From Opitutia bacterium (lineage in GTDB: Bacteria > Verrucomicrobiota > Verrucomicrobiia > Opitutales > Opitutaceae), in the NCBI GenBank assembly GCA_016190985.1, contig JACPPI010000024.1:1-64000 (forward strand): DNA of 64,000 bases, given 5' to 3'. This document shows, piece after piece, positions 30,964-38,664 of this stretch. The position numbers and the translations under genes are program-made. Positions within the stretch are counted from its first letter, which is position 1; each line of letters opens with the position of its first letter. The notes below the pieces were generated by a model. The model made no database searches and had not been told where the DNA came from. It was given only the letters and a program-made list of their open reading frames with translations.

Positions 30964-31233
30964 CGGTGGCTGGTATGCCCCGGCGGAAGCGAAACTGTTC
31001 CGCCCGCGCTGTCATGCCCCGGCAGGTTATTTGGCTTGCCCCTGCGGAAGGCCGGAGCACCCTTTCCCTCGATGAATCGGGGCGAATCGATGGACAGCCT
31101 GATTGTCCTCCCACCCGTGAAACCGAGCGTCATAGGGTTGGCAACCAGCGGCCCATTCCAGCCTTTAATGGGCGGTGACTTGGGACTGACAGGCGGCCAA
31201 GTCCAGCGGGACCGGATCAGCACTCGCCCTTTT

Positions 31234-32805
31234 TTGTTACGGGCAAAATTGCTACTCGCCCTGTTTTGCCTTGGAACCGCCGCCAGTCCGGCGTGGGCAC
31301 TCTTCTCGGTGTGCCCCAAGTGCAATTGGAGGGGAGATGCCCCGCAAGGGGCGGCTTGCCCCAATTGTGGATACGGAGGGAACTCCTCCAACTCAGGCGG
31401 TTCCACCCCCTACAACGGGCCGAACCTCTGGGACGCTCTTCGCCAGCGCAAGGAGCGGAAGGAGCAGAGGCGCCAGCAAGAAGCGTGGAGTGCAAACCAG
31501 CAGGGAGTCGAATATGCCGCCAAACAGGATTGGGCCAGTGCGATCAAGAGTTACCAACTCTCGCTGGAGAAGGATCCGGGTGACCCGATTGTGCTGAAAA
31601 ACCTGGCCTCTGCGCAAGCCCGCCTCGCTAACGACCGGGGGCTGGCGGCCTATAACAGGGGCGACTGGGCCGGCGCCGTCGCGTTTTTCCAGGAGGCCCT
31701 GAACCGGAACCCCTACCCAAAAAACAACAGCATATTGCAGGACAGCCTTGCGAATGCCCAGGAGAAGGCGCGGGCCGACCAATTCAGCAAACAGGACAAA
31801 GCGGCCGCCGTCCAGATGCAGCAGTCCATCCAGAACTTTGCGCAGAGCCTGAATGCGCCACGGGCCGCTTCGGGCAAACAGGCTTCCGGTGGCGGCGGAT
31901 TGGATTTCATCTCAGCTGCTCCCACCCCCAGTGCCGCCAGTCCCGCGGCCACTTTGGAATTCGGCGACCCCATGGTGGTGGATGCCCGCCACGCGACCCC
32001 GGATTTGCCTAAGGACCTGAAGGACGCCGTGGCCGACACACCGAAGGACAAGGCGACGGGCGCACCGATGAGCGCGGATGCGCTCGGCAAACTCGAGGGG
32101 GATTTGCGAAAGCGACTGGCTGAAGCAGCCGACCCGCAGACGCAGGCCTGGCTGGAGGCCCAGCTGGCTTGGACCCTCCAGCAGAAGGGGGACTCCAAGG
32201 GCGCGGTCGAGGCCATCGAGAAGGCGAGCGCGCTCGACCCCGACTCCCCGATGCTCACGCTACTCCGCACCTCGGCCTTCGCCGAGACCAAGGAGCAGTT
32301 CGCCGACGCGGTGTGGGCCGCGCAGGAATATCTCAAAAGCCATCCGGGCAACCGGGTCGCCGCCAGCATTCTGGCGGAGGCGAACGAAAAGTTGCGGCAG
32401 GCGATGGACGCCGCCGCGCCGTCGGCCTCGCCTGCGACGGCCAACCGGCTTCCGCTGGTCCCGTTTGCCCAACAAGGCAAGATGTCGTCGGGAGTCTTGG
32501 CCGGAACACCCGAGACAGACAAAGCCCGGGCGGAAAAGGAATTTGGGTTTCAGGATTTCGGGAAGCAAAGCTTCACCCCGCACTGGCAGGAGCCCCCCGC
32601 CTTGGACAAGCGAATCAACCTGGAGAAGTATCCCGAGTTGAAACAAAGCCAGACGAAAAGAGCGGAGCTGGTCGCCCAATTTAAAGGAGCGGATCCTATC
32701 AAAGCCGAGGAAATCAAGAAGCAGGTGGCCAGCATGGACAAGGAGACCGAGAAAAAGGCCGAGGAAATCATCAAGAAGGATTTCCCCACTGCACCGGGAC
32801 TTTAG
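31234..32805 (+). CDS. Exported zinc-ribbon and TPR protein
   Basis: 523 residues from the TTG at 31234, chosen because it starts a signal peptide (RAKLLLALFCLGTAASPAWA) cleaved before LFSV; a longer reading from 31036 has no recognisable features before it. Directly after the cleavage site is a zinc ribbon, CPKC at 27-30 and CPNC at 42-45. The middle (about 80-160) has two TPR-like helical pairs (GVEYAAKQDWASAIKSYQLS, GLAAYNRGDWAGAVAFFQEA). Then a Pro/Ala-rich linker, more TPR-like helices (about 270-350), and a lysine/glutamate-rich helical C-terminus. A zinc ribbon on an exported protein is unusual. It is the first of four adjacent + strand genes with signal peptides. Confidence 0.6.
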   Translation: MLRAKLLLALFCLGTAASPAWALFSVCPKCNWRGDAPQGAACPNCGYGGNSSNSGGSTPYNGPNLWDALRQRKERKEQRRQQEAWSANQQGVEYAAKQDWASAIKSYQLSLEKDPGDPIVLKNLASAQARLANDRGLAAYNRGDWAGAVAFFQEALNRNPYPKNNSILQDSLANAQEKARADQFSKQDKAAAVQMQQSIQNFAQSLNAPRAASGKQASGGGGLDFISAAPTPSAASPAATLEFGDPMVVDARHATPDLPKDLKDAVADTPKDKATGAPMSADALGKLEGDLRKRLAEAADPQTQAWLEAQLAWTLQQKGDSKGAVEAIEKASALDPDSPMLTLLRTSAFAETKEQFADAVWAAQEYLKSHPGNRVAASILAEANEKLRQAMDAAAPSASPATANRLPLVPFAQQGKMSSGVLAGTPETDKARAEKEFGFQDFGKQSFTPHWQEPPALDKRINLEKYPELKQSQTKRAELVAQFKGADPIKAEEIKKQVASMDKETEKKAEEIIKKDFPTAPGL

Positions 32806-32847
32806 GCCAAACCCCGGCGACTGCTATCTTCCAACTGCCCCACTAGC

Positions 32848-33930
32848 ATGAGTATTTCCCTGCCCCGCGTTTTCTCTTCCCTTCTGGTTTGTTTTTCCCT
32901 TCTGCTCGTTCCCGCGCGAGCGGAAGCTCTTTCGACGGACAAAGCGCCGGACATCGCGGCAATTCCCACCGGCCTGCCGGCAGATCAGACCAACGCCCTG
33001 CTGAAACAATTGGCCGATCTTGCAGCACTGCGCAGCGCGTTCGGCGGCGCCCAGGCAAACTACAACAGCACCCCGCGAACCGGCATTGTGGTTGGCAGCG
33101 CCCAGGAAGCGAATCTCAATAGCAAGATCGCTGCGGTGAATCAGGCCCGGGCAGCCTATATCTCGGCCGTAAGGAAATTTAACCGCGATGTGGCGAAGGC
33201 CGTGGCTGCGGAAAGACGCCGCTATATCAGGATGATGAGCGACTACACCCATCGTCTGGATTGGGGCAAAGAAAAGAAAGATCGCGTGGATGTCGCTTTG
33301 AACAAACTTGCGCCCGAGGGTGATGAAAATGCCACGCCCACCATGGTTCGGGATGTATGGACCCGTATGTTTGCCCGCGAATCAGACAAGGATTTGGCCG
33401 CCGCGGCCGCGGCCGGCGATGGTCCGGGGTTCCCGGGCATGGGCACGCAAAGCCGCCAGGATTGTGCCGTGTTCGCCCTGGCGAATGCCTCCGGCGTGCC
33501 TTACGGGCTGGTCGCCGCGAGCGCGACGGACTTGATCAAACATGCGGAATGGCGGCCGGCCGCCGATCAGGCCGCACCCGAGCAGTCATTTTCCCGCAGG
33601 GGTCTTAACGGTGGCGAGGTCATCATCATGGCTGAGACCCTTGGCCAGGCCACCGTCGTCCCCAGCACCGATTTCCCGAAAACCCTCCAGGCCGGGCACC
33701 GCATTCTCATCAGTGTGGTTCCTTCTGATGGTGACATGGACAGCGCCCATGAAGTTGTCCTCGCCAAGACCTTCAAGCATGGCGGGGAAACGTGGTTTGC
33801 CGTCATGGATTCCAACCAAGCCCCCGATCAACGGCTCTACCTGAATGCCAGGGAGCTCAACACGATCCTCTGGGAAAATGGGGTCGTGTTTCAACCCGAG
33901 CCGAACCGGACCGCACCCCTGCTCCGCTAA
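32848..33930 (+). CDS. Secreted C39/papain-like cysteine peptidase
   Basis: 360 residues with a signal peptide (to about residue 25, ARA|EALS). Residues 85-180 form a lysine/arginine-rich helical region. The C-terminal 160 residues have the papain-fold catalytic pattern: oxyanion Gln and nucleophile Cys in TQSRQDCAVFALANA (Q204, C206), then His in SAHEVVLAKT (H301) and Asp/Asn in WFAVMDSNQ (D321). Its size and motif order fit peptidase C39-like domains, but the family cannot be named from sequence alone. Six bases from the next gene, so co-transcribed with the TPR proteins. Catalysis is inferred, not shown. Confidence 0.6.
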   Translation: MSISLPRVFSSLLVCFSLLLVPARAEALSTDKAPDIAAIPTGLPADQTNALLKQLADLAALRSAFGGAQANYNSTPRTGIVVGSAQEANLNSKIAAVNQARAAYISAVRKFNRDVAKAVAAERRRYIRMMSDYTHRLDWGKEKKDRVDVALNKLAPEGDENATPTMVRDVWTRMFARESDKDLAAAAAAGDGPGFPGMGTQSRQDCAVFALANASGVPYGLVAASATDLIKHAEWRPAADQAAPEQSFSRRGLNGGEVIIMAETLGQATVVPSTDFPKTLQAGHRILISVVPSDGDMDSAHEVVLAKTFKHGGETWFAVMDSNQAPDQRLYLNARELNTILWENGVVFQPEPNRTAPLLR

Positions 33931-33936
33931 TCAATT

Positions 33937-35466
33937 ATGCCCACCTATCCCATCAGACTTATCGCAGTCGTAGTGTTGCTGGTTGCCGGTGCCCTCCGCG
34001 CCGAATTGCCGCCCGACGCACAATCGGCTATGGAGAAAGGCGTCCAGGCTGCGCAACAGCAGGACTTCCCGCTGGCCGCCAAGTTCTTCGCGGAAGCGCG
34101 CGAGTTCGCTCCGGAAGCTCCGGAGTTGCTCTACAACCTCGGCCTCGCCGAATCGAAGATCCCCGGCCGGGAACTGCGCGCCATCGCCTGGTTCGGCGCC
34201 TATCTCGCCGCCAATCCTCGCGCACCCAACCTCGCCGCAGTGAAGAAACAAATGAACGCGCTTGATGTGACCAACCAGGTCAACGTTGCCCGACTGCTTA
34301 AAGCCGTCGCGGAAGCTGCCAATCTCGTGCCGGAGCCCGATCGAAGCATACCGTCCGGGCTGATCGGGAGTTATACCCAAGGCAGCACTTTGCAGCAAGC
34401 TGCGGTATTGCTGGCGCGAACCGGGAATGCCACGGACGCCCTTCGCCTCGCCGCGGGCATCAAGGACAGTTACTGGCGGAGCCGGGTGCAGGGTAACATC
34501 GGTCTCGCCCTTAGCAAAGCCGGAGACACCCGCGGAGCAGGCAAATGCTACAGCCTTGCGATGAAAACCGACTCTGGGCCGTCCTATGATCTGGCTCAGG
34601 CCCAAGCGCGGGCCGGTGAGATTGCCGCTGCCCTCAAGACCGCAGATACCCTGCCTTGGGGTTGGAAGTCCAACTACACCAACTGTGCGATCGCCAAGGC
34701 CATGATCACGCAAGGTGATCTCCCGGCAGCCAGAAAGCTGCTCGCCCGGGTGGAACGGGAGTTGCCGGCAATGGCCGACGACAAAGGCGAGGATACCTAC
34801 AAAAGTGACAATTACCGGGATTTGGGCGTCGCCCTGGCCCAAGCCGGAGAAATCGCTCGGGCCCGCCAGGCCTCCGACCATGTCAAAGTCGACTCTTGGA
34901 AAGAGGACATTCTGGCGGCCATCGCAAGCACACAGGTGGATGGTGGTGATATTGCCACGGCGCAAAAAACCGTCGAACAGCTCACCGGCTACCACAAGGA
35001 GAATGCCCAGAGCTACGTTGTGGTCGCTCAATTGCGGTTACGGGCTAAGTCTGGCGACCTTGCCGGAGCGGTGCAGGCCGCAGGACAGCTGGCGAAAGGC
35101 AAGGAAGACGCGCTCATCGCGCTCGCAAAATTTCTGGCCAGCTCCGGTGATTTTGCGGGTGCCCTGAAGATCGTCGCACTGCTGGATGAACGTTACCACT
35201 ATCGGCGTTGGGCCAGGGCGGGCATCTTCACCGCGCAGAACCAAAGGCAATCGGCCAGCTCCACCCAGGATTGGATCGCGCTGAACTCCGATTTGTTGGA
35301 CGACCCGAAATACTCCGACTTCCCCGCCGCGCTGGCCAACCTGCCGAAAAACAGCGCCAAGGAGACATTTGCTGCCATGCATGACTTCGCGGAATCCGTG
35401 CTCGATCTTCGCGAACTCCTCACGCGGATGATGAAGCTGCAGTCCCAGTCGCAGTCGAAACCATAG
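33937..35466 (+). CDS. Exported TPR-repeat protein
   Basis: 509 residues, signal peptide (MPTYPIRLIAVVVLLVAGALRA|ELPP) and helical repeats throughout (e.g. AQQQDFPLAAKFFAEARE, ALRLAAGIKDSYWRSRVQGN, GDIATAQKTVEQLTGYH), each about 34 residues with TPR spacing. Likely a periplasmic protein-protein scaffold. The next gene repeats its first 120 residues (MEKGVQAAQQQDFPLA against VKKGLIAANQQDFPLA), a tandem duplication. Starts six bases after the C39-like peptidase. Confidence 0.7.
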   Translation: MPTYPIRLIAVVVLLVAGALRAELPPDAQSAMEKGVQAAQQQDFPLAAKFFAEAREFAPEAPELLYNLGLAESKIPGRELRAIAWFGAYLAANPRAPNLAAVKKQMNALDVTNQVNVARLLKAVAEAANLVPEPDRSIPSGLIGSYTQGSTLQQAAVLLARTGNATDALRLAAGIKDSYWRSRVQGNIGLALSKAGDTRGAGKCYSLAMKTDSGPSYDLAQAQARAGEIAAALKTADTLPWGWKSNYTNCAIAKAMITQGDLPAARKLLARVERELPAMADDKGEDTYKSDNYRDLGVALAQAGEIARARQASDHVKVDSWKEDILAAIASTQVDGGDIATAQKTVEQLTGYHKENAQSYVVVAQLRLRAKSGDLAGAVQAAGQLAKGKEDALIALAKFLASSGDFAGALKIVALLDERYHYRRWARAGIFTAQNQRQSASSTQDWIALNSDLLDDPKYSDFPAALANLPKNSAKETFAAMHDFAESVLDLRELLTRMMKLQSQSQSKP

Positions 35467-35475
35467 AGGCTCCCC

Positions 35476-35994
35476 ATGTCCATCGCTCGTATCCGCCTGT
35501 TTGCGATCTTCCTGATCCTGGCTGCGAGCGCCCTGCAAGCCGAACTGCCCCCGGATGCCCAGTCTGCCGTCAAGAAGGGCCTCATCGCCGCCAACCAGCA
35601 GGACTTTCCCCTCGCGCTGCGCTATTTCGAGGAAGCCCACCGGCTCGCACCCGAAGTCCCGGAAATCTATTTCAATCTCGGCCTGGCTGAGTCGAAGATC
35701 CCGGGTCGGGAGTTGCGGGCGATTGCCTGGTTCGGCGCCTATCTCGCCGCCAACCCCAACGCGCCCAATGCCACCGCGATCCGGGACCAGCTCGACGAAC
35801 TGGAGGTCAAGAGTCGGAGCGCGACGGCCCGTTTGCTCCGGTTGCGCCAGAGTGTTTCCAAGCCCAGGAGGGATTCGTCGCCGGTGCGGCTCCAGAACTG
35901 GCCCGGGCGTTTGAAGCGACATGGGTATTGCCGGCAGGTGGCCTCGATTGCGCCGCTGCCCAAGGGTTCGCCGCGGCGCGCGGCCGCGCGGTAG
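35476..35994 (+). pseudogene. Second exported TPR protein, truncated by an ISKra4-family element
   Basis: A paralogue of the preceding gene: signal peptide then ELPPDAQSAVKKGLIAANQQ and NLGLAESKIPGRELRAIAWF, identical or near identical over about 115 residues. Similarity stops at TARLLRLRQ (about 35838). From there to 35994 the frame merely reads the antisense of the transposase and ends in RRAAAR. The missing 380 residues of the paralogue are gone, and a terminator of the + strand sits at 37243, past the IS. Confidence 0.75.
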
Positions 35995-37193
35995 TCCAGG
36001 CGGGCGTGATGTTCGTGGAAGTGGTTCCCCTCGGTCCGCACCGCGGCGGCGGCGGGCCCGGCGGGCAGCGTCGCGAGCACTTCCTCCAGGTGGCGGATCA
36101 CTTTCACCGCCGACTCGTTTTTCAACTGCCGGACCAGGGGCTTGAGCCACGCATTCAGCTTGGCCTGGTCGTCGCCGCAGAGCGCGCGGCCGACGGCCGC
36201 GAGGTGTTGCACGGCGTGATAGAAGTCGAGCCGCTGGTGCGCGCCGGGGAAACGGTCGTCGGCCCGCCGCCAGGTCCACACCGCCCCATCGGCGATCACC
36301 AGGACGCCGGCCGCCTGGCCGAGACCGCGCCCCCGCGCCTCGGCGTGGAGTTGCTCGCGCAGGGCGTCGATCCCTTCCCGCGTGGCGGCGAAGCCGCGTT
36401 CGACGATGACCGGCCGCCCGCCCGCGGTCTGCGCGCGGTGGTCAAGCCGGAAACAGGTGCCGGTGTAGACCCAGTGCCAGCGTTCGGGCTCCTCGCCTTT
36501 TTGGCGGCGGGCCGCGCTCTGGCCCCAGGGGTCGCGTTCGCGGATGTTCCAGGCGTCGATTTGCAGGATCAGCTGGCAGGGCTCCAGCGGCAGCTCGAGC
36601 TGCGGCGGGGCGACGGGCCGGGCGTCGAGGGTGCGGCGCAGTTCCAGAGCGCGCTCGCCCTGGCGGCGCGCTTCGCGGTCGAGCGTGGCCCGCGGCAGCT
36701 TCACCCCGGTGAGCCGCTCCAGCACCAGGCTGGCTTCACTCACCGGCATCTTGCTCGCCAGCAACGCCGTCATCTCCTGCACGGCGGGCGAGTAGCCGGC
36801 GGTGTCGGCCAGGCCAAGCGCGGCGTCGGCCGGCGTGCGCCACTTGTGGCAGCGAGGACAGTAACCGCGGGTGCGCCGCACGGTGACCTCGCCGAAACGG
36901 GTGGGGAAGCTCCGCGGCTGCCCGGGTTTCAGCCTGGTGAGCATCCGCTGACAATGCGGGCAGCGCGGCGGGGTGGCGTCGGCTTTCTTTTGCGCACCGG
37001 CCTCGCTCGCCTGCCGCAACAGCTCCCGGCTCTCCTCGGCGAGCCGGGTCTCCAGATGCCCGAGATTCTCCGGCTCGGCGCACGCAAACGCTTCGATCTG
37101 ATCCTCCCTCCGCGCGGCCAGACAGGCCGCGGTCACACCCCACCGCGGCACCGCGGTGGGGGCCGGCTTCACCGCCGGACCGGTCAGCTCCAA
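35739..37193 (-). pseudogene. ISKra4-family transposase, C-terminus lost
   Basis: 484 codons. ISKra4-like features: CxxC pair (CPHC and CPRCHKWR) in the N-terminal zinc domain, and in the catalytic core QIDAWNIRE, VIADGAVWTWR, RLDFYHAVQHL and SGAIEATCRQYPCRFKRPGQ. Normal family members end in LETFWRN.RWH-type sequence; here the homologous stretch GLETLWRNR stops and runs on as SKRAVALRLL, which is antisense to the TPR gene. The first ~450 residues are intact and might be expressed, but a transposase without its end and an element without one terminus are not expected to move. Confidence 0.75.
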
Positions 37194-37240: not shown

Positions 37241-37242
37241 AT

Positions 37243-37273
37243 GCGCCCCCGGGTTCCCCGGGGCGCTGTTTTG
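37243..37273 (+). terminator. Terminator past the truncated TPR gene
   Basis: GCGCCCC (37243-37249) pairs with GGGGCGC (37260-37266) and is followed by TGTTTTGCTTT on the + strand. As no + strand gene ends just upstream, it probably belonged to the TPR operon before the IS-linked deletion. Confidence 0.6.
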
Positions 37274-37309
37274 CTTTGTCAGCCGGGCGCACAACGTCAG
37301 AGTCCCGGG

Positions 37310-38664
37310 ATGCGACTCCCCCTCCTCCCCGCCCTCTTCCTCGCCGGCGTGACAGCAACTGTGTTCGCGGCGCCCCAGCCCGATGCGGTTGAAACCAAGG
37401 TTCTGCCGCTCGTCGTCGTCAAAGCCGCGCACCTCGTCGACCCGGTGAGCGGCCAGGTCCTGTCCAACCAGGCCGTCGTCATCGAGGGCGACCACGTCAA
37501 GGCCGTCGTGGCTGCGGCCGACCTCGCCAAGGTGGTGCGTCCTGGCGCCAGCGCGCGCGTCATCGACCTCGGCGCCGCCACCCTGCTGCCCGGCCTCATC
37601 GACTGCCACACGCACGTCACCAGCCAGCCGGAGAACTTCTACGAGGATATTTTCCGCAAGTCCCCCATCGACGAGGCGACCACCTCGCACATCTACGCGA
37701 AGCGCACCTTGGAGGCCGGTTTCACCACCATCCGCAACGTCGGCGCCGGCAACTATGTCGACTTCGCCCTGAAGCGCGCGATCGAGGCCGGCAAGATCCC
37801 CGGCCCGCGCATCCTGGCCAGCGGCCCGGCGCTCGGCTCCACCGGCGGCCACAGCGACCTCAACGGCATGTCGCCCTACGTCCGGTTCGAGGGAGAGATC
37901 GGGGGCGTGGCCGACGGCGTGGACGCGATCCGCAAGAAGGTCCGCGAAAACGTCAAGTATGGGGCCGACGTGATCAAGTTTTGCGCCACCGCCGGCGTGT
38001 TGTCAGAGGAGGAATCCGTCGGCGCCCCGCAATACACGCTGGAGGAGATGAAGGCGCTGGTGGAGGAGGCCGCCATGTGGGGCCGCCGGGTCGCGGCCCA
38101 TGCCCACGGCGCCGAGGGCATCAAGCGCGCCATCCGCGCCGGCGTCACCTCGGTCGAGCACGCCAGCTTCATCGACGACGAGGGCATCGCCCTCGCCAAG
38201 GAGCACGGCACCTGGCTCGTCATGGACATCTACAACGACGACTACATCCTGGCCGAATATTCCAAGATGGGCTACCCGGACAAGATCATCGCCAAGGAAA
38301 AGCTCGTCGGCCGCACCCAGCGGGAGAATTTCACCAAGGCGCTGAAAGCCGGCTGCAAGATGGCCTATGGCACCGACTCCGGCGTCTATCCCCACGGCTG
38401 GAACGGCAGGCAGTTCTTCCACCTGTCAAATGGGGCATGACCCCGATGCAGGCCATCCAGTCCGCCACCGTCAGCGCCGCCGAACTGCTGGGCCTGCCGG
38501 ACAAGATCGGCCGGCTCGCGCCGGGTTGCTACGCCGACCTCATCGCCGTGCGCGGCGACCCGCTGGCCGATGTCACCGTGCTGGAGCAGGTGGACTTTGT
38601 CATGAAAGGCGGCCGCGTGACGAAGAATAATCTGACCACCGAGGCCCCGGAGCGGATCGATTGA
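37310..38664 (+). pseudogene. Exported amidohydrolase with a one-base deletion
   Basis: Frame 1 (ATG 37310 to stop 38440) codes a signal peptide (MRLPLLPALFLAGVTATVFA) and an imidazolonepropionase-like amidohydrolase: GLIDCHTHV metal motif, a metal Lys in IKFCATAG, HAHGAEGI, and the metal-binding D of AYGTDSGVYPHGWN. Near 38420-38425 (CACCTGTC) one base is missing: the following codons GTC-AAA-TGG-GGC-ATG-ACC-CCG (frame of 38425) give VKWGMTPMQAIQSATVSAAE, the usual C-terminal third, ending at 38664. A restored reading would be about 450 residues. It may be a real pseudogene or a sequencing error. Confidence 0.8.

Follow-up and report, generated by a model that had tools for sequence, protein, structure and literature searches.

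A recurring gene pair with an exchangeable C-terminal domain in a row of putative secreted-protein genes from an Opitutia bacterium

What holds together a row of four adjacent genes for apparently secreted proteins, and does a protease stand at its centre? The row lies in 64,000 nucleotides of DNA from an Opitutia bacterium (GenBank assembly GCA_016190985.1, contig JACPPI010000024.1, positions 1 to 64,000 of the forward strand), here called the window. It consists of four + strand open reading frames (ORFs), the last running from 35476 to 35994, with intervening gaps of 42, 6 and 9 bases; the adjacency and tight spacing described in an earlier note, made from the letters alone, were thus borne out. 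That note assigned signal peptides to all four products, and the N termini do look like signal peptides when judged by eye rather than by a predictor. It went on to propose an extracytoplasmic complex built around a C39-like protease. Our data are compatible with such an assembly, one member being protease-like, but the conserved core is the pair formed by genes 1 and 2 (A and B below) and not the protease, since the gene 3 family occurs in other contexts, gene 4 has been disrupted, and in B it is the protease-like domain that is exchanged. The earlier observation was largely right, but its centre shifts: in place of a protease complex of four genes stands a module of two, with a swappable head. 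In the reading we favour, which we consider about evenly poised, A and B are the core of an envelope module with an exchangeable head, gene 3 is accessory and gene 4 is dead.

Seven B proteins were compared, namely those of the window, of G240 and nzgw607 (identical proteins, counted once), and of G071, G108, G116, G125 and G210. Pairwise global alignments were made separately for the N-terminal module (N-module) and the C-terminal part (C-part), each against 100 composition-matched shuffles and expressed as Z-scores. Window B and G240/nzgw607 B were 60% identical in the N-module (Z 29.6), with a C-part Z of -1.1. Window B and G108 B gave the reverse, with 51% identity in the C-part (Z 41.2) and a Z of 2.1 for the N-module. 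For G108 aligned with G116 and with G125 the N-module Z-scores were 15.2 and 11.9, and those of the C-part 1.4 and 2.8. The corresponding values were 12.4 and 2.3 for G116 with G125, 9.2 and 0.6 for the window with G071, 8.0 and -0.7 for G071 with G210, and 3.0 and -0.3 for G240 with G108. Comparison of N-module profiles linked the window and G240 to G071 and G210 (score 46.4, shuffle maximum 19.9), and linked G108, G116 and G125 to the same two (31.4, shuffle maximum 15.5). As judged by these alignments, the N-module and C-part of B have separate histories in the seven genomes, and replacement of the C-terminal domain behind a retained N-module would be the simplest reading.

All genome searches were made in samples of the phylum, and the window's own genome is included in the counts of 150 family genomes, 387 phylum genomes (both searches) and 241 relatives. 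Within the sample of 150 family genomes, B of the window matched itself, G108 (45% identity, residues 131-359), a short stretch in G071 and, weakly, G026 (L004, E 0.003), the last being left unread and taken as tetratricopeptide repeat (TPR) background. Profile searches with B gave hits in 2 of the 387 genomes from the phylum and in 4 of the 241 relatives. The N-module profile gave matches in 5 of the 387, and in 3 of 114 genomes from the family of G240, two of which were later discarded. Three candidates were rejected after their ORFs had been read: G294, found among those five, which had a phage-like context and a weak profile match of coiled-coil type, and G592 and G579, whose weak matches were to plain coiled coils. 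One search of 288 genomes yielded 12 matches (E 6e-4 to 0.01), of which the ten beyond those of the window and G240 were also left unread and taken as TPR background. A scan of the genome collection gave no record for window B and a single one for the N-module, JAHFSX010000022.1, from a Verrucomicrobia metagenome-assembled genome (nzgw607). The N-module has a fixed position behind a signal peptide in six of the seven B proteins; in G210 (L026:98-1240) a long run of short PTPIT/QTPN-type repeats precedes it and a Cys-rich region follows. Neither B nor its N-module had a significant Pfam match, and B had no NCBIfam match.

An A-type gene is found directly 5′ of B in all six loci in which the upstream side is present, the G210 gene being at a contig end. 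A and B overlap by 4 bases in nzgw607, G071, G108 and G116, and are separated by 4 bases in G125 and 42 in the window; for these figures gene starts were chosen mechanically, and export of A was judged by eye. Alternative in-frame starts of the window's A lie further 5′, at 31036, 31090 and 31168. Of the zinc ribbon and TPRs that had been ascribed to gene 1, the former corresponds to a zinc-ribbon-like CxxC pair, CPKC...CPNC, and the latter are found as Pfam matches; TPR models also matched genes 3 and 4, in the latter at its start. The A proteins of the window and nzgw607 are homologous by BLAST (E 1.9e-24, residues 245-523), and nzgw607 A has CxxH...CxxC near its start, at the place of CPKC...CPNC. 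Those of G108, G116 and G125 form a second homologous group (E 9.6e-39 to 3.2e-61), whereas G071 A has TPR similarity (E 0.004) and matches briefly around PLTPF (score 22.2, maximum 18.9). The motif L[TV]PF, picked post hoc after it had been seen, occurs in five of seven A-type proteins examined, being absent from G108 and G087, and in 0.3 to 1.8% of shuffles per protein. A gene for a DUF805 membrane protein with Sel1 repeats overlaps A on its upstream side in G116 (L151:3591-5612), and a DUF805-like ORF, recognised by eye, lies upstream of A in G108 (L016:14675-15319); these genes may belong to the version of the module in those two genomes.

The 3′ side of B is variable. TPR genes follow B in two of the six loci, gene 3 in the window and a TPR lipoprotein-like gene in nzgw607, and unrelated genes follow in the other four. 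Of the row, genes 1 and 2 recur in nzgw607; a TPR gene follows there as well, but it has no BLAST similarity to gene 3. The family of gene 3 was found in 8 of the 150 family genomes, its own included, and occurs elsewhere in other contexts without B. GC content at third codon positions (GC3) was 0.69-0.80 in the four genes of the row against 0.89-0.96 in five flanking genes; the corresponding ranges were 0.57-0.65 against 0.81-0.96 in nzgw607 and 0.77-0.78 against 0.95-0.96 in G071, and the contrast was missing in G108, G116 and G125. A tblastn search for A, B and gene 3 found none of them in any of the 40 stretches that were taken behind speA from relatives (out of 135 genomes with speA; seven stretches were under 3 kb). 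These results, the variable genes behind B, the GC3 contrast and the speA stretches lacking A, B and gene 3, together indicate that the row in the window is a local combination, probably acquired, around the recurring A-B pair.

Conserved synteny behind speA with G087 was considered and dropped, as BLAST found no similarity between A and the gene preceding its TPR gene, and the 40 speA stretches lacked A, B and gene 3. That region of G087 (L021:1-5127) encodes a 93-residue membrane-like protein together with two TPR proteins, the second of which matches gene 4 (40% identity over 90 residues); a relative of the 93-residue gene lies behind speA in G061.

The low GC3 in the window, nzgw607 and G071, the empty speA stretches and the transposase gene that adjoins the row would also be expected if A, B and gene 3 were merely local, recently acquired genes for secreted proteins, without shared function and adjacent through chance insertion. 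We consider this unlikely, because an A-type gene precedes B in six of six loci; the GC3 contrast, missing from three of the genomes, is not a mark of the module.

The heads of the B proteins are diverse. They comprise the protease-like domain of the window and G108, a permuted NlpC/YiiX-like domain, FecR, and three regions without family assignment. In window B, Q204, C206, H301 and D321 are all where the earlier note had placed them, but G108 keeps Q201 and not Q204, and its conservation of the putative catalytic set, which the note had made a check, extends in this one homologue to Cys and His, with Asn at the place of Asp. The sole Cys outside the signal peptide is C206 in window B and C205 in G108 B. 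A single Cys outside the signal peptide, retention of Cys and His, and Asp or Asn in third place make it plausible that the window head is a papain-like cysteine peptidase or hydrolase.

Assignment of this head to C39 lacks statistical support. The C-part gave no match to Pfam or NCBIfam at E up to 10, no PHROGs match and no significant match to PDB sequences, and PF13529 (C39_2) had no match in the genome of the window. With hhalign, the C-part scored 15.8 and 11.6 against two subsets of C39_2, below shuffle maxima of 17.4 and 21.6, in a comparison in which the subsets detected each other with probability 78. Single C39_2 members gave at best 16.5, within shuffles, and global mode remained below controls. 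The comparison set held 11 sequences from 24 match rows, fragments being omitted and two of them added later as single members; the query profile was built from two sequences and had low power, so that distant kinship could be missed. As a lead only, the order Q before C, then H, then D or N appeared by eye to be collinear with C39_2 members of relatives. A fold search with a single-sequence model returned nothing at E 0.001 or below, for a model with a predicted local distance difference test score (pLDDT) of 44.6.

The nzgw607/G240 head had no PF05708 match at E 0.01. Compared by hhalign with Peptidase_C92 members (six of eight sequences, two being cut off), the nzgw607 head gave probability 43, E 2.5e-4 and a score of 32.2, the highest of 59 shuffles reaching 18.9; PGD, the histidine of SH and the cysteine of CSE fall in register. 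A Tyr at the YiiX spacing (PMC3142127) could not be seen by eye. The G071 head is FecR (PF04773, E 2e-10), and the heads of G116, G125 and G210 had no significant Pfam match.

Exchangeable C-terminal domains raise the possibility of a MafB-type system of polymorphic toxins or effectors, in which the C-parts would be antagonistic effectors displayed on the surface or released from it, with immunity conferred by a neighbour, gene 3 for example. The layout resembles that of MafA/MafB, papain-like C39 and NlpC/P60 are listed as toxin domains in PMC3482391, and the module is sporadically distributed. The proteins of the window, however, had no PADLOC match. A toxin role is weakened by the FecR head of G071 and by the absence of a constant third gene behind B that might serve for immunity, and we regard it as quite improbable. 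FecR is not, to our knowledge, a toxin domain.

Gene 4 bears on the idea that all four proteins work together. Genes 3 and 4 had been described as two TPR paralogues with a duplicated N-terminal half; gene 4 matches gene 3 over residues 5-123 only, with 64% identity, and the half described as duplicated is what remains of a paralogue. The similarity stops near 35,844, and past residue 123 the gene 4 ORF runs antisense through an ISKra4-family transposase gene. This gene matched the NCBIfam equivalog NF033572 above its cut-off (211.5 bits against 205); the match reaches about 35,841, from where the transposase ORF reads on into gene 4. Because the similarity to gene 3 stops where the transposase gene begins, gene 4 is truncated, and it is the broken remnant of a gene 3 paralogue. 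A second copy of the transposase element was not found in the genome (40 of 225 candidates scored), nor were convincing terminal inverted repeats. A further break near mobile DNA is seen in G001 (L019:7848-10369), where two ORFs just behind a transposase-like gene together make up one relative of gene 3.

The idea of a four-protein complex, with the TPR proteins offering substrates to the protease or anchoring it at the envelope, draws on the tight spacing and on the TPR gene that also follows B in nzgw607. It is very improbable, given that gene 4 is broken, that the whole set was found in no other genome searched, that the gene 3 family occurs without B, and that the third genes of the window and nzgw607 are dissimilar by BLAST. 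The features of the row are collected in Table 1. Plasmids, viral contigs, phages and Rfam gave no match for the row, and promoter and terminator counts were close to those of shuffles. On the far side of the transposase gene, an amidohydrolase ORF (37241-38440, +) scored 455 of 500 bits, below cut-off, with the NCBIfam Xaa-Pro dipeptidase NF051886; it covers profile positions 1-330 of 398 and may end early.

Table 1. Coordinates of the gene row and its features in the window
Feature	Position	Strand	Description or basis
Gene A (gene 1)	31234..32805	+	signal-peptide-like start, zinc-ribbon-like CxxC pair, two TPR regions, C-terminal region common to nzgw607; ORF, TPR models, nzgw607 homologue
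CPKC...CPNC stretch of A	31312..31368	+	
C-terminal region of A in common with nzgw607	31966..32802	+	
LVPF of the L[TV]PF motif of A	32455..32466	+	
Gene B (gene 2)	32848..33930	+	signal-peptide-like start, N-module, exchangeable C-part
Predicted constant helical N-module of B, residues 25-125 (limits approximate)	32920..33222	+	nzgw607 identity 60%, Z 29.6; profile comparison
Exchangeable C-part of B, papain/C39-like by motif only	33376..33927	+	G108 identity 51%, Z 41.2; no family match
Q201, possible oxyanion-hole residue	33448..33450	+	kept in G108
C206, sole Cys outside signal peptide	33463..33465	+	kept in G108
H301	33748..33750	+	kept in G108
D321	33808..33810	+	Asn in G108
Gene 3, predicted exported TPR protein of separate family	33937..35466	+	Pfam TPR_19, E 1e-9
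Gene 4, stub of gene 3 paralogue	35476..35844	+	similarity to gene 3, then none
ISKra4-family transposase gene ending the row	35739..37193	-	NF033572, residues 36-451

That the N-module is just a linker of a common kind, a helical hairpin or coiled coil, and that its resemblance between B proteins means nothing for function, is highly improbable: weak profile matches to plain coiled coils do arise, as in the three discarded candidates, and G108 B gave weak PADLOC matches of coiled-coil type (E 0.002 and 0.006), but seven within-group or linking pairs had Z of 8 to 30 against composition-matched shuffles, the N-module profile scored above all shuffles, and the place behind the signal peptide is fixed in six of seven proteins.

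At the level of sequence, then, the pairing of A with B, the mosaic of N-module and C-part, the conservation of Cys and His in one homologue and the breakage of gene 4 are established. From these we infer export of A and B, docking of B on A, catalysis and a substrate. In the two-gene envelope module that we favour, A and B would both be exported and B, by analogy with MafA/MafB, would dock through its constant helical N-module on A, a TPR or coiled-coil protein. The C-terminal head of B would act outside the cytoplasm. In the window the head would be a papain-like cysteine hydrolase using C206, H301 and D321 to cut an exported or envelope substrate; relatives carry at this place a permuted NlpC/YiiX-like domain, FecR or a region without family. 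Gene 3 would encode an accessory exported protein with TPRs, from a family of its own.

Several points weigh against this reading. The B set consists of seven proteins only, and A falls into three groups between which homology was not established by comparison. The N-module profile of the window and G240 matched that of G108, G116 and G125 directly only at the limit (19.0, shuffle maximum 17.3). Putative catalytic residues were compared in two sequences, which are 51% identical, and at that identity the keeping of a given residue is not rare. The single-sequence models were poor (pLDDT 44.6 and 43.4) and, like the fold search, were left out of the evidence.

More tentatively, the A-B pair may represent an undescribed display system of Verrucomicrobiota, in which a conserved exported hairpin module joins a co-translated partner to heads, enzymatic or sensory, that can be interchanged, and heads move between lineages by recombination behind the module. 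Among the titles listed in the literature searches, none describes the pair. Such a system would follow the principle of MafA/MafB, though its heads would not have to be toxins, and would place this layout outside Neisseria. The constant exported module would then give access to many secreted proteins of Verrucomicrobiota that lack annotation, and binding of A by the N-module alone is predicted.

Among known systems, Peptidase C39/C39_2 (PF13529) shares with the window head the Q-C-H-D/N order seen by eye, but differs in the lack of any family match or profile signal above shuffles. The YaeF/YiiX-like permuted NlpC/P60 proteins of Peptidase_C92 (PF05708; PMC3142127) share with the nzgw607 head the GD motif, a His before the Cys and the CSE motif; this likeness concerns that head and not the window domain. 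FecR domain proteins (PF04773) correspond to the G071 head, which differs in being fused to the N-module behind an A-type gene and is likewise distinct from the window domain. MafA/MafB differs in that B has no MafB-N/DUF1020 match and its N-module no significant Pfam match, that FecR is found among the B heads, that no immunity gene was recognised, that the phylum is another one, and that A has no established lipid anchor. In PMC3482391, docking of MafB on surface-anchored MafA is proposed, and the arrangement is the same as in A-B: an exported partner encoded upstream, and downstream a signal peptide, a constant domain and a replaced C-terminal domain. The upstream gene for an exported partner is present in six of six loci, with export judged by eye, and the Z-scores of B fit a constant N-terminal domain followed by a replaced C-terminal one. 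MafA/MafB is the closest layout to the A-B pair.

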